The notes below the pieces were generated by a model. It saw only the letters and a program-made list of their open reading frames with translations. It was not told the origin of the DNA and searched no databases. This document shows, piece after piece, positions 1,452 to 14,323 of a stretch of 14,342 bases of DNA. How positions within the stretch are numbered: the stretch's first letter is position 1; each line of letters opens with the position of its first letter. The stretch is from Candidatus Fermentibacterota bacterium (lineage in GTDB: Bacteria; JAFGKV01). Location of the stretch: NCBI GenBank assembly GCA_030620115.1, contig JAUXFG010000097.1, forward strand, positions 1 to 14,342, in the 5' to 3' direction. Made by a program: the position numbers and the translations under genes.

Positions 1452-2303
1452 ATGAAGACCTATCTCGATTGTTATTCCTGCTTTGTACGCCAGGCCCTTG
1501 AAGCAAGCCGTATGGCGGGCGCGGACACAGAGCAGCAACGCTCCATACTCCTTCGAGTATTCCGGATACTGGAAGGGCTCGATCCCGAGAGCACACCACC
1601 GGAAATCGCGGACAGTGTACATCGGATTATCCGCCAGGAAATCCACGGTGGCGATCCATATCGTGCTGCCAAAGATGCCGCAACGGCCCAGGCCCTGGCC
1701 CTCTGTCCTCGGCTGAGAGAGCTCATGGATGATGCTGATGATCCCCTGGACATGGCCATCAGACTGAGCATTGCCGGCAACATCATCGACTTTGCGCCAA
1801 GCATCAAATTCGATCTCTGGGATACGGTACAGCGCGTTTGTACCCAGCCATACGCTGCCAACGATCAGCAATCATTCCGAAGACAGCTTGAGCACGTGAA
1901 TCGTATTCTTTTCCTGGCGGACAACGCCGGCGAAACGGTCTTCGATCGCTTTCTCATCGAACTGATAGACACCCCTGTGCTCTACGCAGTAAAGGGTGGC
2001 CCGGTGCTCAACGATGCAACCGTTGAGGACGCGGTGGCCGCGGGTGTTGATCGTGTGGCCGCCATTGTGTCTACCGGATCGGACGCGCCGGGTACGATCA
2101 TTGACCACTGCTCCCAAGAATTCCGGCAACTCTATGACAACGCGGAAATGATCATCGCCAAGGGACAAGCGAACTACGAGACGTTAAGCAAGGAAGGAAG
2201 CCGGGTCTTTTTTCTCCTGCAGATCAAGTGCCCCATTATTGCCCAGGATATCGGCTTCCCCACGGGAAGCATCGTGCTCAGACAAGGCCGCAACGAGCAA
2301 TGA
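1452..2303 (+). CDS. DUF89/ARMT1-like metal-dependent phosphatase
   Basis: A 283-residue member of the DUF89/ARMT1-like family (PF01937), bacterial/archaeal small subgroup. Family members are metal-dependent damage-control phosphatases acting on harmful phosphorylated metabolites; the exact substrate of this one is unknown. Visible signatures are an N-terminal DCYSCF with two cysteines (C7, C10), AGNIIDF (108-114), LADNAGE (155-161) followed by F164-D165, KGGPVLNDAT (181-190), and GQANYETL (238-245). The Asp/Asn residues of the DNAGE and ND motifs are those known to hold the catalytic metal in the family. There is no signal peptide or membrane segment. The ATG follows AGGTGA at short spacing. 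It is preceded by 184 bp with only a gene remnant and followed by a repeat-rich spacer, so it is probably monocistronic. Confidence 0.88.
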   Translation: MKTYLDCYSCFVRQALEASRMAGADTEQQRSILLRVFRILEGLDPESTPPEIADSVHRIIRQEIHGGDPYRAAKDAATAQALALCPRLRELMDDADDPLDMAIRLSIAGNIIDFAPSIKFDLWDTVQRVCTQPYAANDQQSFRRQLEHVNRILFLADNAGETVFDRFLIELIDTPVLYAVKGGPVLNDATVEDAVAAGVDRVAAIVSTGSDAPGTIIDHCSQEFRQLYDNAEMIIAKGQANYETLSKEGSRVFFLLQIKCPIIAQDIGFPTGSIVLRQGRNEQ

Positions 2304-2661
2304 CGGAACCATGGAAGCGGAAGCGCCACCGCATCCCGTACCCCGGCCTTCCTTATCCCATTCTCCCCCCCTTCCAGCAATCCAGCAATCCAGCAATTCG
2401 AAATTCCCCCGTCCCCATCTCCCAAGAAACCTTGTCGGGAGCTTCGGCGGGAGCCTTGTCGATTCCCTCCGTCCTGCCCTTCCTCCATTCGACGTTTCCG
2501 CCAGCTGGCGGATCGCATCCGCCATATCGAGCATCAACGGCCATGACGGAGCATGGCCTTCCATCATTCTCATTTCGACGTTGAATATTGAATGTTCGAT
2601 GTTCAATCCAAATCCCGCAATCCCGCAATTCCCCCCATTGCCCCGCCCCAAATGCCGAGCG
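2304..2661. repeat. Repeat-rich intergenic spacer between DUF89 gene and MBL-fold gene
   Basis: This 358-bp spacer has no convincing gene; one frame stays open through it but its composition is that of the repeats. It holds a run of CCAGCAAT words ending in GCAATTCGAAATT (2372-2405), a phrase found again near 3790, 5068 and 14115. It also contains the second 16-bp palindrome (2497-2512), a TTGAATATTGAATGTTCGATG-like stretch around 2581-2605, and CCCGCAATCCCGCAATT (2613-2630). The plus strand is markedly C/T-rich, as in the other spacers. Confidence 0.7.
2497..2512. repeat. 16-bp perfect palindrome TCCGCCAGCTGGCGGA, copy 2
   Basis: Identical to the copies at 120-135 and 8751-8766. It sits in the spacer between the DUF89 gene and the MBL-fold gene, about 150 bp upstream of the latter, with unrelated flanking sequence. 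Confidence 0.85.
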
Positions 2662-3489
2662 ATGGGATTGACCTATCTTGTCATATTCCTATCCTTGGGC
2701 GCGATGCCCTGGGAAACAAACGCGGCCCCCAAGCAGGAGCCATCCCAGTCAACCGATTCCATGACCAACAGTGAGGAGAGAGCAGTGAAAATTACCGTCG
2801 CGTATGACAACTACGAATGCAACCCCTCGCTGCAGACCGCATGGGGATTCGCTTGTCTTATTCAAGCCGGGCATTCCACTGTGCTATTCGATACCGGCGG
2901 AGACGGCCCCACATTGTTGGGAAACCTTGAAGCCCTGGGAGTTGATCCGAAGACAATCGACGCCGTGGTGCTCTCCCATCCCCACCATGATCACGTCGGG
3001 GGGCTTCGCTCACTCCTGGAAACAGGCGTGAGGCCTCCGGTCTATGTACCGACGGAATTCCCCGCGGAGTTCAAGCGAGAAATAGGTCTTATCACCATGT
3101 TGGAAGAAGTGGAAAGACCGTTGGAGATTGCACCAGGAATACATGCCACCGGGCGAGTGGGAACCGGCATCGTGGAGCAGGCATTGGTGGTGGCTACTCC
3201 AGAGGGCAATGTGGTCATCACGGGCTGTGCGCATCCCGGTGTGTCGAATATGGTCTATGCCGCCAGGCGGATCATCGAGGGTGAAGTTACCTTGGTTATG
3301 GGAGGCTTCCATCTCCGCAGTGCATCCGACGCGCAGTTGCGAGCAATCATCCACGATCTCGAAGCCATGGGCGTGCAGCGTGTAGCGCCATGCCATTGCA
3401 CCGGAGATCATGCACGCAGCTTTTTCGCTCAGGCATATGGAACCAACTACATTGCCGCAGGAGCCGGATGGAGCATCACACTACACTAG
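2662..3489 (+). CDS. MBL-fold metallo-hydrolase, COG1237 type, probably exported
   Basis: Metallo-beta-lactamase-fold protein of the COG1237 group, whose archaeal members are linked to methanopterin precursor synthesis and whose bacterial members are mostly uncharacterised. The group opening is plain at ITVAYDNYECN (44-54) and WGFACLI (61-67). The metal motif HPHHDH lies at 106-111, with further likely ligands H191 (GCAHPG), H217 (GGFHL) and H245 (PCHC). Counting from the ATG at 2662, the first 22 residues look like a signal peptide with a short hydrophobic core and an N-A-A cleavage site, but the n-region lacks a positive charge and there is no Shine-Dalgarno. An in-frame GTG at 2785 has an excellent GAGGAG (2773-2778) and would give a cytosolic protein starting at the conserved domain. 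I prefer 2662 because exported relatives are common, but the start and location are open. Confidence 0.85.
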   Translation: MGLTYLVIFLSLGAMPWETNAAPKQEPSQSTDSMTNSEERAVKITVAYDNYECNPSLQTAWGFACLIQAGHSTVLFDTGGDGPTLLGNLEALGVDPKTIDAVVLSHPHHDHVGGLRSLLETGVRPPVYVPTEFPAEFKREIGLITMLEEVERPLEIAPGIHATGRVGTGIVEQALVVATPEGNVVITGCAHPGVSNMVYAARRIIEGEVTLVMGGFHLRSASDAQLRAIIHDLEAMGVQRVAPCHCTGDHARSFFAQAYGTNYIAAGAGWSITLH

Positions 3490-3810
3490 CCCGCACTATC
3501 ATGCCTTCTCATCACCTCTCAATCCCGCAATTCGCATCCCCTCCCAGATTCTTCCGTCGCACTGCTCTCTCAGAATGACACGTCTTTTCCCGTCCAATGC
3601 CAACAACCCCCGTCATTCTGAGCGACTCCAAGGAGCGAAGAATCTCTCCTTCCCCTCCGAGACGACCGAAGGTCGCCCCCTTTGCGTGAGACTCCCTCTC
3701 CTGATCAGATCCCAGATTATAAATTGACAGATTCGAGATTGTCAGATTCCACATTCCCCCACCAGTCCCCCATTCCCGCAATCAAGCAATCCAGCATTTC
3801 GAAATTCCCC
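3490..3810. repeat. Intergenic repeat cluster A
   Basis: No gene. It holds a class 1 unit in reverse orientation (3546-3580, beginning AGATTCTTC and ending CAGAATGACA). After 30 bp comes a class 2 unit (3611-3645, from GTCATTCTGAGCG to GAAGAATCT). Next is the module CGAGACGACCGAAGGTCGCC with CCCTTTGCGTGAGAC (about 3657-3693). Then come ATTGACAGATTCGAGATTG and TCAGATTCCACATT (about 3723-3754), and finally CCCGCAATCAAGCAATCC with a TTCGAAATT ending (3775-3808). Each class unit is an imperfect palindrome with constant ATTCT/AGAAT outer arms. Confidence 0.8.
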
Positions 3811-3826
3811 ACGGAGGTGTTGCTCA

Positions 3827-4066
3827 ATGCCGATCTATGAATATCGATGTGGCTCGTGCGGAGCGCGGGTCGAGCTTTTTCTCAAGACAACCCTCGAAAC
3901 TCCCGCGTGTCCCGAGTGTGGTCATCCGCTGACCGAGAGACTGCTGTCAGCCCCCAACGTCTCCAGCGGGCGCATAACCCGGGAGCCGGGCCATACCTGT
4001 TGTGGGCGCGAGGAGCGCTGCGATACCCCACCATGCTCAAGTGGAGATCCCTGCTGCCGTACGTAG
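3827..4066 (+). CDS. FmdB-family zinc ribbon protein
   Basis: A 79-residue FmdB-type zinc ribbon (the CxxC_CxxC_SSSS family), named after a putative regulator of formamidase genes; the molecular role of most members is unknown. It starts MPIYEYRC as the family does. The ribbon cysteines are C8/C11 and C28/C31, followed by the usual LTERLLSAP segment. The C-terminal tail is cysteine-rich (CCGREERCDTPPC, then CC near the end), a frequent extension in environmental bacteria that may bind additional metal. A strong GGAGGTG (3813-3819) precedes the ATG. Repeat clusters lie on both sides, so it is probably its own transcription unit. It is convergent with the small peptide gene downstream. Confidence 0.92.
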   Translation: MPIYEYRCGSCGARVELFLKTTLETPACPECGHPLTERLLSAPNVSSGRITREPGHTCCGREERCDTPPCSSGDPCCRT

Positions 4067-4290
4067 CGGAAAGGGATTGGGTACCCACTGTCATTCTGAG
4101 GGAGCGGAACGACCGAAGAATCTGGGGGGGGGAAAGAAGGAAGCGTTCAGCGTTGAGATGACAGAACGAGGAGCAAGGAGAGATTCTTCGCTTCTTGGAG
4201 TCGCTCAGAATGACAGTGGTAGTGTGCAGAAGTATGTGGCATCTGAAATCTATAATCTCAAATCTGTCAATCTGCAATATAGGATCTAAA
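4067..4290. repeat. Intergenic repeat cluster B (inverted relative to the others)
   Basis: No gene. A class 1 unit in forward orientation (4089-4123) is followed after 57 bp by a class 2 unit in reverse orientation (4181-4215). The middle carries AAGCGTTCAGCGTTGAGATG (4141-4160), the reverse complement of the CAACGCTGAACGC module seen at about 4972-4984 and 14214-14224. The end (about 4244-4277) holds AATCTGTCAATCTG wording, the reverse complement of the ATTGACAGATT module. The whole cluster is thus flipped compared with clusters A, C, D, E and F, which makes its plus strand purine-rich. It lies between two convergent genes. Confidence 0.8.
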
Positions 4291-4317
4291 GAGAAAGACG
4301 AAGGAAGAAGGAAGAGA

Positions 4318-4352
4318 AGGTGAGACCGGATCTTGCCGACCCGATCTCACCT
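4318..4352 (-). terminator. Rho-independent terminator of the small peptide gene
   Basis: On the minus strand, AGGTGAGATCGGGTC pairs with GATCCGGTCTCACCT across a five-base GGCAA loop. This gives a 15-bp stem with two G-U wobbles and no mismatch. On the plus strand the same two positions become C-A mismatches, which fixes the direction. The stem is followed on the minus strand by a pyrimidine-rich T/C tail. It begins 10 bp after the stop codon of the 83-residue peptide gene. Confidence 0.85.
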
Positions 4353-4362
4353 CACGAGCGAA

Positions 4363-4614
4363 CTAGCTCGACATCAGGGCAAATTCGCAATCCAGCGTAG
4401 TCAGGCTCTCCATTCCCGTCGGCACATGCCACGTATTGCCGCCGGTCCCCGGTGTATGGCTGAATGTCATGCTTCCAAAGCTGTGGCCGGAGAAGAATGT
4501 CGATCCCGCACCATAATGGATCGGCGTTCCGGAATTGACCTTCGCACAAGCCAGAGCCGACGTCTCAAAGGAATTCTGCGAAAAAACTGTCGGTTTCCGG
4601 TATGCCTTGCGCAT
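4363..4614 (-). CDS. Small peptide, possible RiPP precursor
   Basis: An 83-residue peptide that I cannot assign to a named family. Its start MRKAYRKPTV recalls the K-x-Y-x-K-P leader start seen in many small putative precursors of ribosomally made, modified peptides. It is followed by FSQNSFETSALACAK (11-25), a short acidic-hydrophobic patch ending at C23. The rest (26-83) is rich in Gly, Ser, Thr and His, with segments such as GAGSTFFSGHSFGSM, a lone tryptophan (W62) and a second cysteine (C76). There is no membrane segment. Evidence that it is a gene: AAAGAGGG lies 8 bp upstream of the ATG on the minus strand, and a strong terminator specific for that strand follows 10 bp after the stop. 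No radical-SAM, YcaO, LanM-like or protease gene is visible in the window, so a modified product is an inference only. A small structural or regulatory protein is the alternative. Confidence 0.65.
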   Translation of the reverse strand: MRKAYRKPTVFSQNSFETSALACAKVNSGTPIHYGAGSTFFSGHSFGSMTFSHTPGTGGNTWHVPTGMESLTTLDCEFALMSS

Positions 4615-5312
4615 AGCAGCCGCCCTCTTTCAACACGTGAAAGCCTTCCAATGACCGGCAGGTCAGGATACTCAATTGCGTCAAGCGTTACACGTGTTCA
4701 CGCCCACGAGGCGCCATCATCCGAAGGATGGACGCAAAAGAAACCCAGGGCAAAACAACCCTTACTGCTCATATGACTATGAATCTATCGAGCCCCAACT
4801 CCCCAGGCAAGTATTTCCTCCCCTCCTCCCATCCCCCAGATTCTTCGGTCGCTTCGCTTCCTCAGAATGACATACGCATTAACACGCCCTATAGCAACCA
4901 CCCCTGTCATTCTGAGCGACTGCAGAGAGCGAAGAATCTCTCCTTCGTCCTTCCTCCGTCATCTGAACGCTCAACGCTGAACGCTTCCTCCCCTCCTCCC
5001 CACCCAGATTCTTCGGTCGCTCTGCTCCCTCAGAATGACACGTAGTGGCCCAGTCCCCCATTCCAGCAATCCAGCAATTCGAAATTTCTCCCTATTCGCC
5101 CCCCCCTCCTTTTCTCCTTTCCCGGTGAGGATGAACAGCTAAGTTCGTGCCGACCATTGATTCATTGTGAATGCCCCGCACAGAGTTGGTACTCATGCAT
5201 CAAGACGCGAGCCTGGATATTGCCATGCCCAACTACGACATACCGGTAGCGACTCGACGGCCTTGCCTAATATCCCACCATTCCAAAGCCCAATTCTGCA
5301 TAAGTCCTCACA
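4615..5312. repeat. Divergent intergenic region with repeat cluster C
   Basis: No gene is supported here. 4615-4837 is unique sequence upstream of the peptide gene; a TTGACG at about 4674-4679 (minus strand) is the only promoter-like word and no matching -10 was convincing. Cluster C follows: class 1 reverse (4838-4872), 32 bp, class 2 forward (4905-4939), 66 bp containing TCAACGCTGAACGC (4971-4984), then class 1 reverse again (5006-5040). After it comes CCAGCAATCCAGCAATTCG with an AAATT end (5063-5087). 5091-5312 is the leader of the Mla operon; I see no clear regulatory element in it. Confidence 0.75.
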
Positions 5313-6440
5313 ATGTCCTTTGACGACAAGGTAAGATCGACGAGCGCGGGCCTGGCGTTTTGCGGCTTCCTCAAGGCCCCGGATGTATCTCTCATCCGGA
5401 GCGCCTTCGCCGATATCTCGTTGCGCGCAAAACAACACGTGGTGATGGACTTCACCGAATATGATGGCATGGATACGGTTGCCGCCTCGGGCATCTACGA
5501 AGGGATTCGGAATCTGGAACGAGCGAAGATCGACGTCTATATGAACGGCCTGCTCCCCCGTGATCAGGAACTGCTGGCCTCATTTCGCCGCCATGAACAG
5601 AGCCTCAGTGCGCCCCGCCGGAGCTGGAGTCTGAAGGATCATTTCGAGGGAGTTGGAGACGACGTAGTGGCTTCTTGGGAGACAGCTCGGGGGCTTTGGG
5701 TTTTCTCGAAGAATACATTCAGCGCCCTCGTCAGGGTTCTGACCACGCCTTCTCTGTTCAGATGGCACCTGACCTTCTACTATATGGAACATGCCGGGGT
5801 CCGCGCAGTACCCATCGTGGGCACCCTCTGTTGGCTCATCGGAACGGTCCTGGGTTTCCAGGCAGGCTACCAACTCAAGTCCTTTGCTGCGGAGATGTTC
5901 ATGCCTGACCTCATTGCATATAGCATCACGTGGGAGATCGGCCCACTCCTGGCCGCCATTTTAGTGGCCGGGCGATCGAGCTCTGCATTTGCTGCGGAGA
6001 TCGGCACCATGAAGGTCCGCCAAGAGATCGATGCATTGGAGGTGATGGGATTCAATATCTTCGAGTACCTTGTGACACCCAAGATGTGTGCGCTTTTCCT
6101 GGTCATGCCCGCTCTTGTCCTTATGGCCGACTTCTTCGGCCTGCTTGGCGGATTGCTCATCGGCGGCTGGTATTTGGACATGCCCGCCAGCTACTATCTC
6201 TCACGTTTGAACTTCGTCATGTTGCCCATCGATTTCTGGTGGGGTATGCTCAAAGGTCTGGTCTTCGCGGTCATTATCGCTAATGTTGGCTGCTATATGG
6301 GTATGCGTGTCAGGGGCGGTGCTGCTGAGGTGGGCCGTGCCACGACCGCCGCAGTCGTCACCGCCATCTTCCTGGTCATCATGGCCGACGCGCTCATCTC
6401 CTTGATCTTCATGGAGATACGACCAACAGTACAGGTTTGA
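5313..6440 (+). CDS. mlaE: MlaE-type ABC lipid transporter permease with N-terminal STAS-like domain
   Basis: Inner-membrane permease (MlaE/DUF140 family, PF02405) of an ABC system that moves phospholipid between the inner and outer membranes. The 375 residues divide into an N-terminal cytosolic STAS-like domain (about 1-95, with VVMDFTEYDGMDTVAASGI at 43-61), a linker, and the permease (about 130-375) with around five membrane segments. The family signature is complete at 210-246: GPLLAAILVAGRSSSAFAAE followed by IGTMKVRQEIDALEVMG. In E. coli the STAS protein MlaB is separate, but the fused form is common elsewhere. A stop codon lies four codons upstream in frame, so ATG 5313 is the first possible start; it has no clear Shine-Dalgarno. 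It is the first gene of a four-gene operon, with mlaF starting 6 bp after its stop. Confidence 0.95.
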   Translation: MSFDDKVRSTSAGLAFCGFLKAPDVSLIRSAFADISLRAKQHVVMDFTEYDGMDTVAASGIYEGIRNLERAKIDVYMNGLLPRDQELLASFRRHEQSLSAPRRSWSLKDHFEGVGDDVVASWETARGLWVFSKNTFSALVRVLTTPSLFRWHLTFYYMEHAGVRAVPIVGTLCWLIGTVLGFQAGYQLKSFAAEMFMPDLIAYSITWEIGPLLAAILVAGRSSSAFAAEIGTMKVRQEIDALEVMGFNIFEYLVTPKMCALFLVMPALVLMADFFGLLGGLLIGGWYLDMPASYYLSRLNFVMLPIDFWWGMLKGLVFAVIIANVGCYMGMRVRGGAAEVGRATTAAVVTAIFLVIMADALISLIFMEIRPTVQV

Positions 6441-6446
6441 TATGCC

Positions 6447-7241
6447 ATGAATGCGCGGGAAATTATCCTCGAAGTCGCCCATCTTTTTGGAGGATACGAG
6501 GAACAAGAAGTCCTCAAAGACATATCTATGTCGGTATGCCGTGGTGAAATCCTTGTCATCGTGGGCCGTAGCGGTTGTGGCAAGAGCACGCTCATGCGTT
6601 ATCTCCTCGGGCTGTCAAAACCATGGTCAGGCGCCGTCCATTTTGAGGGGGAAGACATCTGGGGGGAAAGCATGGATGTCCTTCGCCGATCGCGGGCAAG
6701 ATGGGGTGTGCTTTTTCAATCCGGTGCGCTCCTTGGAAGCCTCACCTTGTTGGAAAACATCACCTTGGTGCTTAACGAATTCACCAATCTCAGCCTGAAA
6801 GAAATGGAGCTGGTTGCACTGAGGAAGCTGGAAACTGTAGGATTAGCCGATTTCGCGCGGTCATATCCGCTGGAGGTATCGGGCGGAATGCAGAAAAGAG
6901 CAGGTCTCGCACGGGCTATGGCCCTTGATCCCGAGGTACTCTTCTTTGACGAACCCTCCGCTGGTCTCGACCCGGTGACCTCGTCCGAATTGGACCATCT
7001 GATCCGCTCGATCAACCGAACCATGGGAACCACCATGGTTATTGTCACCCACGAACTTGCCAGCATTCTTGCCATCGCTGATCGGGTAATCATGCTTGAT
7101 GGGGAGAGCCGCGGGATCATCGCGGAAGGAACCGTCAGGCAGCTGCAGGTGGAATCTTCGGATCGTCGCGTCACGGCCTTCTTTGGTCGAGAGAGCCTTA
7201 ATGCTTCGGGAGTCACATCAGATGTCAATGGAAGCGAATAG
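6447..7241 (+). CDS. mlaF: MlaF-type ABC transporter ATP-binding protein
   Basis: Cytosolic ATPase subunit that pairs with the MlaE-type permease to power lipid transport. All motifs are present in 264 residues: Walker A GRSGCGKST (40-48), Q-loop Q91, ABC signature VSGGM (144-148), Walker B LFFDEP (165-170) with D-loop SAGLDP, and switch histidine H202. The SGGMQKR form of the signature is typical of the MlaF group rather than of other importers. It lies 6 bp after mlaE and its last 20 bp overlap the start of the MCE gene, which suggests translational coupling. The roughly 25-residue tail after FFGRES is variable in the family. Confidence 0.95.
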   Translation: MNAREIILEVAHLFGGYEEQEVLKDISMSVCRGEILVIVGRSGCGKSTLMRYLLGLSKPWSGAVHFEGEDIWGESMDVLRRSRARWGVLFQSGALLGSLTLLENITLVLNEFTNLSLKEMELVALRKLETVGLADFARSYPLEVSGGMQKRAGLARAMALDPEVLFFDEPSAGLDPVTSSELDHLIRSINRTMGTTMVIVTHELASILAIADRVIMLDGESRGIIAEGTVRQLQVESSDRRVTAFFGRESLNASGVTSDVNGSE

Positions 7242-8091
7242 ATTTCGGTTAGGCGTCTTCTTCTTCACCACTGGCATCCTCTTCGTCAGCATCCTGATCT
7301 GGCTGACCGGCTGGTTCAAGAGTGAGGAAACTTGCGAGTATCTCTGTTACTTTGCTGAATCAGTACAGGGTCTGGAGACAGGAAGCTCCGTGAGGTTCAA
7401 TGGCGTGCCCGTGGGAACTGTTGACCGTATCGTCGTGGCCCCCGATGGCCGGTTGGTCGAAGTAATGGCACGCATCGACGCCGATTTTCCTATTGATACC
7501 GACATCGCAGCCCGGCTTGACTTCGTCGGCATCACGGGGATCAGAATCATCAATCTTCGACTCGCCGATGCCGATCAGATAGAAAGCCTCTTTCTTGCAT
7601 TTGAACCGAAATATCCCGTCATACCCGTGCAGAAATCCCAGTTGGAGAGGCTTGACATAGGATTGCAGAATCTGCTCGAGTTCATGGCGGATCTCGATAT
7701 CGCCGAGATCAGTAATCTCACCATAGAATCGCTGCATTCTATGAACAACCTCCTGAACAGCGAAGATCTGACAGGTCTTCTCCACAACGCCAACCGGACA
7801 TCCAGTCGTCTCGATTCGTTGATTCTGATCTATGCTGAGTTAGGCACAAGAGCCAATAGACTTGCCGATCAGATGAGCACCGAAGCGCCAGCGGCCGCCG
7901 AGGAAATCGGAATGCTGGTCGAGAACCTGAGCGCTCTTACGGCTTCCTACCATACTATGAGCTATGACGTCGGAGCCATTGTCGCCGAGGCCGGCGAGCT
8001 GCTGCGTGATCTTCGTTTGCTGATCAATCGATTATATGAGCATCCAGAGGAGTTCCTCGTGGAACCTCGGAAGGAGGATGTGTGGCCATGA
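7222..8091 (+). CDS. mlaD: MlaD-type MCE-domain lipid-binding protein
   Basis: Substrate-binding component of the Mla system, anchored in the inner membrane with its body in the periplasm. Of 289 residues, about 10-30 form the single N-terminal membrane helix, and 36-115 form the MCE domain (PF02470). The conserved SVQGLETGSSVRFNGVPVGT lies at 47-66 and GITGIRIINL at 103-112. The remainder is largely helical and may form the tail that oligomerises into a channel. A longer frame is open upstream, but ATG 7222 is chosen because GGGAG (7208-7212) fits it and the protein then begins just before the membrane helix. It overlaps mlaF by 20 bp and the lipoprotein gene by 4 bp (ATGA). Confidence 0.93.
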   Translation: MSMEANRFRLGVFFFTTGILFVSILIWLTGWFKSEETCEYLCYFAESVQGLETGSSVRFNGVPVGTVDRIVVAPDGRLVEVMARIDADFPIDTDIAARLDFVGITGIRIINLRLADADQIESLFLAFEPKYPVIPVQKSQLERLDIGLQNLLEFMADLDIAEISNLTIESLHSMNNLLNSEDLTGLLHNANRTSSRLDSLILIYAELGTRANRLADQMSTEAPAAAEEIGMLVENLSALTASYHTMSYDVGAIVAEAGELLRDLRLLINRLYEHPEEFLVEPRKEDVWP

Positions 8092-8690
8092 GACTGAAGC
8101 TTCTAATTCTGCCTCTGCTTCTCACAAGCTGTGTTTCCGTAAGAATCAAGTCGGAGCCCCCTCCGATCACCGCGTACAAGCTGGGCTATCCAGTGCCCGT
8201 CGCTGTTGACTCCGCCCGCGGAGGCGTCATCCGAATCAGGGATTTCTCCGTATCACCGGACTATGATCGCCTCGACATGATTCTGATCACGGGAGAGGGT
8301 ACCCTTGCGCAGACTTCGCTGCATCGGTGGGCGAGCAGACCAGCCAACATCTTGGCGGACCTCCTCTTGAGAGATCTCGTAGCAGAAGGATCTTTTCGGG
8401 CCGTGTTCAAGGGAGCCACCGCAGTAGCTGAAAATGTGACGATTCATGGTCATGTTCGAGAGTTTGGCGCAAGAAAGGAACGCAGCACATGGCACGCGGT
8501 GCTCGACATGGATCTGACATTGGTGGGCCGCGCTTCCGGGATCATCTTCCAGAAAAACTACCGCTTCGACAGAACAATGCAGACACCGGGCTACGATGCC
8601 TTGGCCGCTGCCCTCTCCACCCTGGTGGAAGAATGGTCCCTCACCGTTCGTACCGACATCCACTCATCCTTAGGGTTCGCGCAGGAATAG
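8088..8690 (+). CDS. ABC-type transport auxiliary lipoprotein (PqiC-like)
   Basis: A 200-residue lipoprotein of the ABC-transport auxiliary family (PF03886, PqiC/YmbA type), which accompanies MCE transport systems and probably sits at the outer membrane facing the periplasm. The lipobox LTSC with acceptor C15 follows a short hydrophobic signal. Family wording is visible around RIRDFSVSPDYDR, then RWASRPANILADLLLRDL, and a C-terminal segment ending in a helix. ATG 8088 overlaps the mlaD stop as ATGA, with AAGGAGG (8071-8077) upstream. An in-frame GTG at 8082 would add two residues and sits only 4 bp from that Shine-Dalgarno. It is the last gene of the operon; no intrinsic terminator was found, though a palindrome lies at 8751-8766. 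Confidence 0.85.
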   Translation: MRLKLLILPLLLTSCVSVRIKSEPPPITAYKLGYPVPVAVDSARGGVIRIRDFSVSPDYDRLDMILITGEGTLAQTSLHRWASRPANILADLLLRDLVAEGSFRAVFKGATAVAENVTIHGHVREFGARKERSTWHAVLDMDLTLVGRASGIIFQKNYRFDRTMQTPGYDALAAALSTLVEEWSLTVRTDIHSSLGFAQE

Positions 8691-8780: not shown

Positions 8781-9088
8781 TCACGGCGTAGTCAAACGTA
8801 GACGGGCCTGCCACGGCGAAGCTTCCGCGAAGACGGGAGGCGTAGCCGAAGCTACATCGAGGATTTGGCTCTTCTCCCCACCTCCCCTCTCCCAGATTCT
8901 TCGGTCGCTCCGCTTCCTCAGAATGACACACGCCATATCCGTCTGCGCGCCATCACTGTCATTCTGAGCGACTCCAAGAAGCGAAGAATCTCTCCTACAT
9001 CCTTCCTCCGTCATCTGAACCCTGAACACTCTCTCCTCCGCCCGCAGATTGACAGATTCTAGATTGACAGATTCCACATTCCTCCCCC
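8781..9088. repeat. Repeat cluster D, inside the 3' end of the membrane protein frame
   Basis: From left to right: a GGCGTAG/GGCGAAGC-type GC-rich repeat (8781-8850), class 1 unit reverse (8894-8928), 28 bp, class 2 unit forward (8957-8991), a CATCTGAACCCTGAACACTC module (9017-9036; also near 11255), and AGATTGACAGATTCTAGATT with GACAGATTCCACATT (9049-9080). All of these are repeat modules found in gene-free spacers elsewhere in the window. Here they have no stop codon in the minus-strand frame of the upstream membrane protein and are therefore read as its C-terminus. Confidence 0.8.
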
Positions 9089-11012
9089 TCAATCTCATCC
9101 TCCACAATCTGAAGCCGGCGGGGCATTGATATCTGCCCCGATTGGTGAGATACGCTCGGGGTCGGTCTTCACAAATGAAGCTTATGCAATTCTTCCCACG
9201 AGGACGTAGGAGATGCCACGGCAGCGGAAGGTAATAAGCATGTCTCCTCAGTCCCAGTATCATCATGGAACCGATGTCTTGCCCGTTGACCTCCACATGT
9301 ACGTATTCACGGCAGAAAGCGCCGGCTTCCACGGTGAGCACAAGATCCGCCTGGTAGCGCTCATCAGAGGCCAGGTTGAACCATATGGAGGCATCTCCAT
9401 CGGAAAACCGGAAAGGTGCTCCCTGCTCATCTGATTCCGTAGCCCACCATCCATGGAAGAACATTATGTTGCTGCGCGGGGCGATAGGATCGCCGAATTC
9501 ATAAGAACCCAGGGCTCTCAGATTGTGATCGATCCATCTCGAGTCGAGAGATCTCTTGTTCGCCAAGAACTGAGGATATCTCCAACTCCACAGATAATTC
9601 TGATAGATATCGATATTAGGAAAAGCATTCCATCTCGTGGTATCGTTATTATAGAGACCCTGGAATGTATTGATGCCAATAGAGGCGCCACATAAGAGAA
9701 CCATGAACACGGCTACCGCCCACCGATGACGCCACTGCCGCAAAGGCTCACTATCCAAGATGATGAGTGTAAGAAGGATAACGCCGGGAAATGCCTCGGT
9801 GAAGAACCGGCTGCCAAAGCAGTGCCCTCCCCACCATCGAAAGGGCTTCGAGATCACCACGAGATGGATCATAAGCCAGCCTATGGTGAGCCAGAAGAGG
9901 GGCTTCCTGCGTACACGGGCAAAGGCCAAGGGGAGCCCCAGCCATGTCAGAATGAGATAAGGACTGAACACCACGAGACCTCTGGAGGGGCTGAACAGAT
10001 TCCCGTACATCCCCCGAATCATCCGCCACAGAAGCTCCGCACTCACCAGGGAGCCAGCCAAAAACCGCTGTCGAACAAGGAACCAGATGAGGATGGCGAA
10101 GCCCACCAGGAGCAAACCACCAATGCGAACTCTCCAGTGTTTCCATCCTAGAAAGATCCCTAGCGTCATAGCCAAGACAGCTCCAAATCCGATCAAGAAA
10201 AAACGCGTCACGCCAGGGACTCTGGTCAACAGGTAATAGTCTGGAAGGACTTGCCCGTATTCCTTCAGAGAATGAAGAATCAGCACGAGCATCAATCCCA
10301 CGAACGTCGCGGCGAGTTTGAAGAATTCACCTCGCTTGATGACGAGAACATAGACACACACGCCCACGGCGAAAAGGAGGGCCGTGGGCCTGCATAGATA
10401 GGCCGAGAAGAGGAGGAATCCCAGCAGATAGGGATTCATGGCAGCGGCATTTCGTTCCGAGTTCACGAGCATAACCAACGCCGAGAGAATGAAAAGTACT
10501 GCGAAGTTCGTGTTCCACAGCGCCGTACCCATGGTGCTTATCAGCGGGCTTCCAAGGACAAAGGCGGTGGTGATCGAGAGACTTGGGATGTGTGGCAGAT
10601 ACTGTGCGGAGATGAGATAGACCAGCAGGAATGCCAGGCCCACAGTCATGGCGGAGAGCAAATTCTGAAGAGCCCCATCGGATTTCGGAGAAAGCATGTC
10701 CTCCCCGGCTACGCGCGCGAAAAAGACAAAGGGCAGTATATAGATTGACGTCCCCAAAGGAGAGAAGTGGTAGCAATGCCCCCTGATGTGACGCAGCCTC
10801 TCGCCCTTGTCCATCCATGTCGTGGCAGGCACATAGCTCATCCCTGCATATGCATCGAGCCGAACCGTATGGTGATCTAGAATCGCCTGTGAGGTGAGAA
10901 GCGTTCCTTGGGGATCACTACCCGTGTACCGTACCGGCCCCAAGTACGCAACGAAAAAAGCCCCAACCGAAAAGAGGATTACCCCCACGCTTATCCTAGC
11001 CCGAAACTTCAA
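8781..11012 (-). CDS. GT-C-like polytopic membrane protein with repeat-derived C-terminal extension
   Basis: A large integral membrane protein, 743 residues as read. About 12 hydrophobic segments fill residues 1-445. Loop motifs resemble the GT-C superfamily (lipid-linked-sugar glycosyltransferases of the PMT/ArnT type): GSDPQGTLLTSQAIL (31-45), HFSPLGTSIYILP (82-94) and WWGGHCFGSRFF (393-404). A soluble periplasmic-type domain follows (about 490-640), with beta-rich wording such as DLVLTVEAG and VHVEVNGQDIGSM. The function is probably sugar transfer in the cell envelope, but donor and acceptor are unknown. The start is TTG at 11012, with AGAGGA six bases upstream on the minus strand; no ATG fits better. 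Residues from about 645 to 743 are encoded by intergenic repeat modules, so the functional protein probably ends near residue 640, or the extension is a recent addition. Confidence 0.75.
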   Translation of the reverse strand: MKFRARISVGVILFSVGAFFVAYLGPVRYTGSDPQGTLLTSQAILDHHTVRLDAYAGMSYVPATTWMDKGERLRHIRGHCYHFSPLGTSIYILPFVFFARVAGEDMLSPKSDGALQNLLSAMTVGLAFLLVYLISAQYLPHIPSLSITTAFVLGSPLISTMGTALWNTNFAVLFILSALVMLVNSERNAAAMNPYLLGFLLFSAYLCRPTALLFAVGVCVYVLVIKRGEFFKLAATFVGLMLVLILHSLKEYGQVLPDYYLLTRVPGVTRFFLIGFGAVLAMTLGIFLGWKHWRVRIGGLLLVGFAILIWFLVRQRFLAGSLVSAELLWRMIRGMYGNLFSPSRGLVVFSPYLILTWLGLPLAFARVRRKPLFWLTIGWLMIHLVVISKPFRWWGGHCFGSRFFTEAFPGVILLTLIILDSEPLRQWRHRWAVAVFMVLLCGASIGINTFQGLYNNDTTRWNAFPNIDIYQNYLWSWRYPQFLANKRSLDSRWIDHNLRALGSYEFGDPIAPRSNIMFFHGWWATESDEQGAPFRFSDGDASIWFNLASDERYQADLVLTVEAGAFCREYVHVEVNGQDIGSMMILGLRRHAYYLPLPWHLLRPRGKNCISFICEDRPRAYLTNRGRYQCPAGFRLWRMRLRGRNVESVNLESVNLRAEERVFRVQMTEEGCRRDSSLLGVAQNDSDGAQTDMACVILRKRSDRRIWERGGGEKSQILDVASATPPVFAEASPWQARLRLTTP

Positions 11013-11429
11013 CTGCGATCCTCTCTATCCAGTGGCCTCTCATTCCCGCAATCCAGCATTCCCTTTCTCTCCTCCCCAGATTCTTCAGGCGCTCCGCTCC
11101 CTCAGAATGACACACATTTACACAGGCACATTCCCACTACCACTGTCATTCTGAGCGACCATAAGGAGCGAAGAATCTCTCCTTCCCCTCCGAGACGACC
11201 CAAGGTCGCCCCCTTTGCGTGAGAATCATCCCAAATCCCATTCTTCCTCCGTGACCTGAACCCTGAACACTCTCTCCTCCGCCCCCCCAGATTGACAGAT
11301 TCGAGATTGTCAGAACCACAGATTACACAGATTGGGAGAGGAGATTGGGAGATTGATTGCATGGATTCCCCCAGATTCCACATTCTTCATCCTTCCCCCC
11401 CATTCCAGCAATCCAGCAATTCCCCATCC
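11013..11429. repeat. Intergenic repeat cluster E
   Basis: No gene, apart from the leader of the minus-strand membrane protein at its left edge. Contents: CATTCCCGCAATCCAGCATT (11041-11060), class 1 reverse (11078-11112), 31 bp, class 2 forward (11144-11178), CGAGACGACCCAAGGTCGCC with CCCTTTGCGTGAGA (11191-11224), a GAACCCTGAACACTCTCTCC module (11258-11277), and GATTGACAGATTCGAGATTG with TCAG (11291-11314). It then has a degenerating AGATTGGGAGAGG stretch (to about 11356) and CCAGCAATCCAGCAATT (11404-11420). Long open frames on the plus strand here belong to the antisense shadow of the aminotransferase. Confidence 0.75.
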
Positions 11430-13796
11430 CTATATCTCCACACTCATGCTCTGGGAGAGCCCATCTCCTCCTGCCTCAAACCCCTCGACGCGACAGTTCA
11501 CGTGCCGGCCGATCACGAGTCCGGTGCGAATAGCTTGGATGATGCCCGGCGTCCCCGCATCCTCAAGCACTGTTCGATCTTCCACGTAGCGATGCGATGT
11601 CTTCGTCGTCCAGTAGACGATTCCTCCTCCCACATCAAGTGGGATGGTATTCCGAAAGAGTGGCTCCTCCAGCAGGAGGATCGGGTGAGTTTGCCACCCG
11701 CCGGGAAGTCGCTCTGTAGATACGATGCCACCCGCGATATGATCTCTCGCCATCTGCATCTCGATCTTGCCCAAACCTGCGGTGAGGTCGGCAATCAACC
11801 GGACGCCAATGTCGTGCAGAGCAGAAGCGAGAGACCGTGGATCAGGGAGCGGGAGTCGATCATCAAATCCTGCCAGCACAATGGTGCGGTCGGGTTCTGC
11901 CCGTGCAGTTTCCATAACCTCTTCAACCGAGTCGCAGGGCGCCACCGTGGCAATCAACGAAAGCCCCGGCCGGGACAAGGGGTCTCCCAAGGTTACGAGC
12001 CTTACTCTCGCATCCTCGGATACCGTCCTGGAGATGCCATACGCGTCCTCCAGGCCTCCAGGCAATTCAGCGCCAAGGTGATAGAGCAGAACACGCAGGG
12101 GATCATATCCTGCACGGATGAACCTCAGCCCATACCCATTGGGTGCTCCGAGACAGCCCCGTATGGTGTTCTGGGCCCAATGGTACCAGTATGTCGAAGT
12201 GGTGCCCGTGAAGTTGATCTCCGTGTGCGTATTGGCAGCAAAGGGGAGGATCTCGGAACGAATGAACGACTCGATGGCCGGGCTGCTGGGCGTCTCCTCT
12301 TGATCCTGAAGCATGCTCCAGTCAGCGATGCCCACCCTCCGGACCACCTGGTCCCTGTGGGCGAATTCACCATTTCCTCTATCCTGGCCATAGGCAGGGG
12401 CATACTCATCCCAGCCCCGACTGATCTCCTCTACCGCGTTGAGCACTGTTTCGACCTCGTCAATTGAGTTCATCTCATTGAATGTGACTCTGATCCAACC
12501 GGGTTTCTGATCAAAGAGGCCGCGATTGATCCTGTCACGGTGATAATCGGATTCCTCATCGCTGATCTGCAGGAGCCAGTGCCCATAAGGCCCTGCGCAC
12601 GAGCACCCGGGTCGAACTTGTATGCCGAACAGATCATTGAGGAGCTTGGCAATCAAGTTGTGATGCACATAGTACACGATGGTGCCGTCGCCCAGAGGAT
12701 GAGGGAGCAGATAGGGCATCAACGAGGATGGAGGCGGGTTGTCGGTGGTGTTGTACCTGCTTCGCACCACAAAGGAAATGATGGCGAAGCGATCGAGATC
12801 AGTTCCACCGATCACTTCGATCTCGGCAACGCGGGAGAGGCGTTGAAGCGCCACTTGGGCGAAATAGCGCACCACGCTTCTGATCTGGGGAACCCGCATT
12901 TGCTTCTTGATTCGCATGACCTCCCCGATCCTGATCAACTCGATCATGGTGGATATCCGGGGAGCGGGAAGCACAAGTCTCTTCTCGTCAAACGAATCGC
13001 GACGAACGCACAGAAGGCCACAGGCCTGCGGGCCGCCGGGGAATTTGTGAGGAGAGAGCCCCACTGCATCCGCCTGACAATCCTCCAGATGCAGCGCGGC
13101 ATACGGCCCGGCAGCGGCATAGTCGAGAGCCGAAAGGGCGCCGTACTGATGTCCCAAGGAAACCAGGCGGCAAAGATCCGGTTGAATACCGGTCACATTC
13201 GAGCCGGCTGTGCACGTAATAAGAATCGGATTCGCGGCTTCGTCTCGAGCTTGTGCGAGATGTCTCTCCAAGGCATGAAGGTCGGGCTTACCCGCATCAT
13301 CGAATCCAAGGTGTATCAGCCGTTTATAGAGGCACTCCCTCAGCACCAGGTCAGCCGAGTGGTGCTCCATCATGGTCGTGATGAGTATGGGAAGCGCATC
13401 CTCCGGAATCAGCTCCACGATGCGGTCCTGATCCCAGTAGTCGGGAAGTCGGTAACCCAGGATATCACGGGTGAGCACATTCATAGCCGCGGTACAGCCC
13501 GTGCCTACCGGCAAGAGGGCGAACTGGTCTCCGGCGTGAAGTTGGCGAGTCAACCTGTCCATTGCTTCGTCGTACGCATCATGTATACGCTGCAGATCTC
13601 CCGGCGCCACGAGCTCCAGGATAACATCCTCGATGCTGCGCAGGGGTAGCCCCATGGCCGTGGAATCTGTGTAGATCACCGGGACTTCCTTGCCAAATGG
13701 GCTCTTGAATCTCGACGACGTGTAGAACAACGTGGTTCGAAATTGCTCGAAGAACTCCAACTCCTCTACCGGCACATGTGGCGTACATTCCGACAT
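11430..13796 (-). CDS. Tandem class V aminotransferase / cysteine desulfurase-like protein with a degenerate second copy
   Basis: A 788-residue PLP enzyme of the class V (SufS-like) family, about 250 residues longer than usual. Copy 1 (about 1-470) carries GTGCT (98-102), EHHS (144-147), SNVTGI (199-204), the PLP-ring aspartate D225, SPHK with Schiff-base lysine K251, the cysteine loop RPGCSCAGPYGH (395-406) and a complete small domain. It lacks the usual ANTHTE motif and the GGG...EGGTP loop. Copy 2 (about 506-788) has ANTHTE (521-526), an aspartate at D670 aligned with D225, a GGG loop (723-725) and DAGTP (746-750). In it SPHK has become STER (693-696), the phosphate loop is lost and there is no small domain. 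Residues 222-255 and 667-700 align without a gap at an offset of 445. ATG 13796 follows GGGAG by six bases. The reaction (desulfurase, epimerase or other) is unknown. Confidence 0.88.
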   Translation of the reverse strand: MSECTPHVPVEELEFFEQFRTTLFYTSSRFKSPFGKEVPVIYTDSTAMGLPLRSIEDVILELVAPGDLQRIHDAYDEAMDRLTRQLHAGDQFALLPVGTGCTAAMNVLTRDILGYRLPDYWDQDRIVELIPEDALPILITTMMEHHSADLVLRECLYKRLIHLGFDDAGKPDLHALERHLAQARDEAANPILITCTAGSNVTGIQPDLCRLVSLGHQYGALSALDYAAAGPYAALHLEDCQADAVGLSPHKFPGGPQACGLLCVRRDSFDEKRLVLPAPRISTMIELIRIGEVMRIKKQMRVPQIRSVVRYFAQVALQRLSRVAEIEVIGGTDLDRFAIISFVVRSRYNTTDNPPPSSLMPYLLPHPLGDGTIVYYVHHNLIAKLLNDLFGIQVRPGCSCAGPYGHWLLQISDEESDYHRDRINRGLFDQKPGWIRVTFNEMNSIDEVETVLNAVEEISRGWDEYAPAYGQDRGNGEFAHRDQVVRRVGIADWSMLQDQEETPSSPAIESFIRSEILPFAANTHTEINFTGTTSTYWYHWAQNTIRGCLGAPNGYGLRFIRAGYDPLRVLLYHLGAELPGGLEDAYGISRTVSEDARVRLVTLGDPLSRPGLSLIATVAPCDSVEEVMETARAEPDRTIVLAGFDDRLPLPDPRSLASALHDIGVRLIADLTAGLGKIEMQMARDHIAGGIVSTERLPGGWQTHPILLLEEPLFRNTIPLDVGGGIVYWTTKTSHRYVEDRTVLEDAGTPGIIQAIRTGLVIGRHVNCRVEGFEAGGDGLSQSMSVEI

Positions 13797-14323
13797 ATTT
13801 TTCTCCCGCTCGAAAAGGGCCTCGCTTCCCGCTCACCCCCAACCTTCAGTTATCAGCTCACCAGTCGTCAGCTCCTCTCCTCCCCAGATTCTTCAGTCGC
13901 TCCGCCCCCTCAGAATGACACACGATCCAATATCCGTCTGTACGCCACCCCTGTCATTCTGAGCGACTCACAAGAGCGAAGAATCTCTCCTTCCCCCCGA
14001 GACGACCGAAGGTCGCCCCCTTTGCGCCTTTGTGCCCTCTTGTCACGCCGAAGCCTCGGCGAAGGCGGATGTGTGAGACTCCCTTCCTCTCCCCACATTC
14101 CAGCAATTCAGCAATCAAGCAATTCGAAATCCCTACCACTACCACTGTCATTCTGAGCGACAACAAGGAGCGAAGAATCTCTCCTTCCTCCATGCTCCAT
14201 CATCTCAACGCTCAACGCTGAACGCTCTCTTCCCCCCACCCCCCCATCCAGTTTCCTCTTGAGCTTTGCATGATGTCACTTCTCTTTCCTCTGGATGTCG
14301 ATATCCCAGAAAAGGAGAAGACC
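13797..14323. repeat. Intergenic repeat clusters F and G
   Basis: No gene. Class 1 reverse (13886-13920), 31 bp, class 2 forward (13952-13986), then CGAGACGACCGAAGGTCGCC with CCCTTTGCG (13999-14027). Compared with cluster A, this last module is interrupted after TTTGCG by about 46 bp containing ACGCCGAAGCCTCGGCGAAG (about 14028-14073) and resumes as TGTGAGACTCCC. Next come CCAGCAATTCAGCAATCAAG with CAATTCGAAAT (14099-14129) and a solitary class 2 unit (14146-14180) followed by CAACGCTCAACGCTGAACGC (14206-14225). The leader of the plus-strand gene starting at 14324 occupies the last ~80 bp. Confidence 0.78.

Follow-up and report, generated by a model that had tools for sequence, protein, structure and literature searches.

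A SufS-like class V protein with two complementary fold copies in one chain: a probable fused pseudo-dimer with a single active site

The window analysed here, a stretch of 14,342 nucleotides, takes up an entire contig of a draft genome (4.1 Mb in 296 contigs, 98% complete) from a Candidatus Fermentibacterota bacterium, a group represented at the phylum level by three genomes only. On the minus strand, positions 11430-13796 hold an open reading frame of 788 codons without a stop or frameshift; the longest open frame in shuffled sequence of equal length was 308. A purine-rich GGGAG stretch stands immediately ahead of the ATG, and codon-position composition is similar in the two halves of the gene and in the adjacent genes. 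Within its own genome this frame is the sole match to the 788-residue protein, and other class V enzymes are encoded elsewhere in that genome. The adjoining frame, which runs in the same direction (8781-11012, minus strand), encodes 743 residues with weak matches to the PMT_2 and LA_3751/LA_3752 glycosyltransferase families. Also in the window are an Mla-type lipid transport operon (5313-8690, plus strand), comprising an MlaE permease with a STAS-like N-terminus, an MlaF ATPase, MlaD and an ABC auxiliary lipoprotein, and an ARMT1-like damage-control phosphatase (1452-2303, plus strand). The frame of the latter overlaps an open frame at 2239-3489 (plus strand) whose C-terminal half contains a metallo-beta-lactamase-fold domain.

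The features of the 788-residue protein, with the evidence on which each was placed, are as follows.

12306-13796, minus strand: copy 1, residues 1-497, a nearly complete SufS-like class V subunit (Pfam Aminotran_5; structure match)
13587-13601, minus strand: site of the first deletion in copy 1, residues 66-70, where the ANTHTE loop, about 10 residues, is gone (alignments)
13362-13364, minus strand: H145, equivalent to SufS H123 (alignment)
13122-13124, minus strand: D225, equivalent to SufS D200 (alignment)
13044-13046, minus strand: K251, the Schiff-base lysine, equivalent to SufS K226 (alignment; invariant among aligned sequences)
12954-12959, minus strand: site of the second deletion in copy 1, between residues 280 and 281, where the GGG...beta-hairpin...GTP block, about 27 residues, is gone (alignments)
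12597-12599, minus strand: C400 in RPGCSCAGPYGH, equivalent to the catalytic C364 of SufS (alignment)
12279-12305, minus strand: linker, residues 498-506 (alignment ends of copies 1 and 2)
11433-12278, minus strand: copy 2, residues 507-788, a degenerate large domain without the lysine and without a small domain (profile matches; copy 2 model)
12219-12236, minus strand: ANTHTE in copy 2, residues 521-526, equivalent to the A53-G57 region of SufS (R56 loop) (alignments)
11709-11711, minus strand: R696, which replaces the Schiff-base lysine (alignment)
11547-11630, minus strand: GGG...GTP block in copy 2, residues 723-750, equivalent to the SufS beta-latch, with T749 matching T278 (alignments)

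The initial annotation had recognised two copies of the PLP fold in this single frame, and profile searches, blastp and a MAFFT alignment all bear that reading out. A profile that we made from nine relatives, leaving out both copies, matched copy 1 at 12-282 (E 8e-49) and 296-496 (1e-44), and copy 2 at 519-576 (E 6e-7, the ANTHTE stretch) and 667-774 (8.6e-19, the K-to-GTP stretch), in a numbering that starts at the open-frame start, 12 residues before the ATG. On nearly all other relatives the profile gave one continuous match, and on L017 and L025 it gave two adjoining pieces. Compared with one relative by blastp, copy 2 gave a value of 2e-17; its homology to the subfamily is far beyond chance. 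An internal pairing proposed earlier, with an offset of 445 that sets D225 against D670 and K251 against R696, reappeared unchanged in an independent MAFFT alignment of both copies with E. coli SufS and 20 relatives.

The whole protein scored 70.2 bits against Pfam Aminotran_5, for which the curated cut-off is 21.5. When the halves were searched separately, as had been proposed, copy 1 alone scored 67.5 bits and copy 2 alone gave no match to this profile. The nearest subfamily is annotated as 'aminotransferase class V-fold PLP-dependent enzyme'; it is uncharacterised and carries the motifs ANTHTE, SPHKFLGGP, GGGTV...GTP and GCSCAGPYGH. By tree and motifs both copies fall within this ANTHTE/SPHKFLGGP subfamily, whose other members are single-copy proteins with all of the motifs, many of them 450-630 residues long. 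The score against the NCBIfam sufS profile was 60.3, far under its cut-off of 475.1.

Copy 1 consists of a large domain, a small domain and a C-terminal extension. It contains the class V trio of lysine, Asp and His, and the elements that act within a subunit are retained: K251, D225, H145, N200, R395, C400, R436 and the small domain. R395 aligns with R359 of E. coli SufS and R436 with R379, so that the Cys on the S-transfer loop and the substrate Arg pair expected of a cysteine desulfurase are all in place. Because C400, R395 and R436 are retained, the predicted chemistry is most likely cysteine-desulfurase-like. Both deletions in copy 1 are clean gaps, and the sequence that flanks them stays aligned. 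The small domain of copy 1 also carries an insert of about 30 residues (RYNTTDNPPPSSLMPYLLPHPLGDGTIV, residues ~347-376, 12669-12758) that is absent from all relatives.

Copy 2 is a different kind of remnant. Alignment upheld the earlier claim that it lacks the Schiff-base lysine, the phosphate loop and the small domain, and further showed that the PLP-stacking His, the catalytic Cys, SNVTG and the equivalents of R359 and R379 are gone. D670 is all that it has of the lysine/Asp/His trio, and no remnant of a second small domain was found downstream of it. As the first reading of the sequence had also held, the ANTHTE and GGG...GTP elements are missing from copy 1 and present in copy 2, and the alignments agree. 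The class V arrangement in which a repeated subunit carries every active-site element, two trans loops among them, is therefore not seen in this protein. Judged by its sequence, it is a class V, SufS-like member by descent, with an altered architecture.

In SufS, crystal structures show that the R56 loop of one monomer extends in the direction of the other monomer's site and its partner SufE (PMC11408855), and that the beta-latch enters the active site of the adjacent monomer (PMC4934914). We used published SufS structures to define a 'trans' set, comprising residues 53-66 (the R56 loop and the start of helix 4; PMC11408855) and 250-279 (the glycine-rich loop, beta-hairpin, cis-Pro and GTP; PMC10011822, PMC4934914), the exact boundaries being our own choice, and scored a position as near-invariant when 10 or more of 12 close relatives share its residue. 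Copy 1 retains 0/21 near-invariant trans positions and 87/117 elsewhere; the corresponding figures for copy 2 are 16/21 and 25/117. Restricted to the large domain, Fisher tests gave p = 6e-9 for copy 1 and 1e-3 for copy 2. Since the matching SufS loops act across the dimer, complementary loss of this kind is what a one-site pseudo-dimer predicts. The suggestion that the halves have split the work, with copy 1 holding PLP and copy 2 supplying the trans elements, thus receives strong support from the sequence and the published SufS structures together.

A reading in which copy 1 acts alone, its missing loops somehow replaced, and copy 2 serves as a pseudoenzyme domain for regulation or scaffolding would fit the disappearance of the lysine and most cofactor contacts from copy 2; the extra segment at ~347-376 of copy 1 could in principle fill a gap. 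It leaves unexplained, however, why copy 2 retains just those loops that copy 1 is missing, and we regard it as distinctly unlikely.

In a tree computed on shared columns, both copies lie inside the close-subfamily clade with support of 100/100, on long branches (3.1 and 5.2 changes per column). The data did not reject a shared origin for the copies (p-AU 0.10), and tandem duplication would be the simplest account of how they arose. The long branches also fit relaxed constraint, and we count them, together with the occurrence of the tandem form in one genome, against a single-site pseudo-dimer. They would equally suit a decaying gene or non-functional duplicate, in which tandem duplication took place during erosion, and the lack of a further tandem case among 1304 genomes points the same way. 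Against decay stand 788 codons free of stops and frameshifts, coding-type composition over both halves, and losses that are sorted by role rather than random. We give it little credence.

To place the protein among its relatives, we compared it with about 50 of them. The loops, the lysine and the Cys motif occur together in one copy, apart from frames interrupted by a frameshift or by the end of a contig, and one very distant row. Relatives with long open frames (780, 802 and 1027 residues) contain one copy each. No second tandem case was found in 1304 whole genomes, made up of sets of 60 and 386 spread over bacteria, seven further phyla and the phylum of origin; part of these searches used strict E limits, and their outcome is informative on tandem relatives and gives no tally of canonical ones. 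A scan of GTDB contigs yielded 18 relatives, all single-copy, plasmids (80 records) were single-copy throughout with no tandem form, and no relatives were found in IMG/VR. With no second case in the 1304 genomes, the 788-residue protein is a singleton.

The initial annotation had taken absence of the tandem form from other genomes as a sign of local rearrangement or misassembly. The absence holds for the genomes searched; the misassembly reading is opposed by the precise complementary deletions and the long divergence of the halves. An assembly artefact, with two genes joined in a metagenomic contig, draws some encouragement from a singleton whose whole window is a single contig among 296. Joining two genes could not, however, remove the lysine from copy 2 or cut two precise blocks out of the interior of copy 1, and the join would have had to fall in frame between stretches of similar composition. 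Such an artefact is barely credible.

Structure models were examined for the full chain and for copy 2 alone. The full-chain AlphaFold model (pTM 0.65) is good over most of copy 1, with blocks mostly at pLDDT 75-95, and unreliable over copy 2, where pLDDT is mostly below 50 and the MSA covered copy 1 only; MAFFT always placed the relatives on copy 1, which left the copy 2 columns of the full-chain MSA uncovered. Complete SufS structures match the copy 1 model at Z 34-37 over 365-370 aligned residues. Modelled alone, copy 2 reached a pLDDT of 62.7 and a pTM of 0.69 and superposes on the large domains of cysteine desulfurases (SufS 53-297, Z 15-18, ~210 residues), a fold match that is partly expected because the alignment behind the model consisted of relatives of copy 2. 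The hairpin is among the least certain parts of this model, as might be expected for an arm that needs a partner. The glycine decarboxylase P-protein was not among the VIA-align rows.

Taken together, these results point to a fused SufS-like class V pseudo-dimer with one active site, a reading to which we assign a probability of roughly three in four. SufS, a group II cysteine desulfurase of class V and fold type I, is a homodimer with two sites and complete subunits; here the elements are divided over two fused copies. Copy 1 matches the whole SufS fold and keeps the equivalents of K226, H123, D200, R359, C364 and R379, and copy 2 retains the R56-loop and beta-latch positions. In the relatives, two identical subunits would form two sites. 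To each site one subunit would contribute the lysine, the PLP pocket, the small domain and the reactive Cys, and the other the ANTHTE and GGG-hairpin-GTP loops. In the 788-residue protein, copy 1 would provide what acts in cis and copy 2 the loops that act in trans, with the reciprocal site lost. Copy 2 would pack on copy 1 like a partner subunit, and the site would form inside one chain and presumably be active. Because both trans loops are deleted in copy 1, two copies of it could not complete a site if the subfamily shares SufS geometry, which the alignment with SufS suggests. Copy 2 could complete the site of copy 1 and could not host its own, which would leave one site per chain.

The same division of labour might operate between chains, giving two composite sites either in a domain-swapped dimer or in some larger assembly. 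The sequence pattern predicts only that some copy 1 meets some copy 2, and the relatives are expected to be dimeric like SufS. About 58 residues nevertheless separate the last SufS-aligned residue of copy 1 (464) from the first of copy 2 (522), and this slack suffices for pairing within a chain; we consider the between-chain arrangement unlikely.

The working principle of such a single-site enzyme is already known from two precedents in the same fold. The glycine decarboxylase P-protein (GLDC/GcvP) belongs to fold type I; in many species it is one chain of two related halves, one of which lacks the active lysine, with one PLP site per pair (PMC7259800). The 788-residue protein likewise has two homologous fold type I halves per chain, one of them without the lysine. 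The P-protein differs in its size (~1000 residues), its PLP family, the location of its lysine in the C-terminal half and the full-size fold of both halves, whereas the 788-residue protein carries its lysine in copy 1 and has no small domain in copy 2. No P-protein family appeared among the Pfam or NCBIfam matches (E up to 0.01), and the likeness is one of analogy only. Serine palmitoyltransferase SPT1/SPT2 (LCB1/LCB2) is similarly a duplicated fold type I pair with one lysine, in which one member of the heterodimer lacks it and a single site lies at the interface (PMC6148460), but it comprises two separate chains and belongs to the alpha-oxoamine synthase family.

In the light of these cases, the earlier statement that no enzyme with such a split had been described was too strong; what stands is that we found no class V pseudo-dimer in the open-access literature, with few subscription papers covered. 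The reciprocal loop loss is sharper here than in the P-protein or SPT as described in PMC7259800 and PMC6148460. We think it probable that the cis and trans elements of a class V, SufS-like homodimer were lost in an exactly reciprocal way, leaving one chain with a single composite site, and that this happened independently of glycine decarboxylase and SPT. If so, the protein is a natural separation-of-function experiment, which reveals the cis and trans parts of a class V dimer without mutagenesis, in an assignment consistent with SufS structures. It would add to the P-protein and SPT another independent example of how a symmetric PLP dimer turned into an asymmetric single-site enzyme, and offer a simple chain for changing cis and trans residues one by one.

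When the neighbourhoods of relatives were compared, no conserved gene neighbourhood was seen around the class V genes. Relatives of MlaE and MlaF lie ~3 kb from a class V gene (L068) in one genome (G508), and the other neighbourhoods compared showed no common pattern. Within the window, families of interspersed intergenic repeats occur at 3526-5096, 8874-9088, 11058-11430 and 13866-14245. The repeats are 35-108 nt long, 60-93% alike and present in both orientations (for example TGTCATTCTGAGCGAC...GAAGAATCT), and they border most genes, including both sides of the 788-residue gene.
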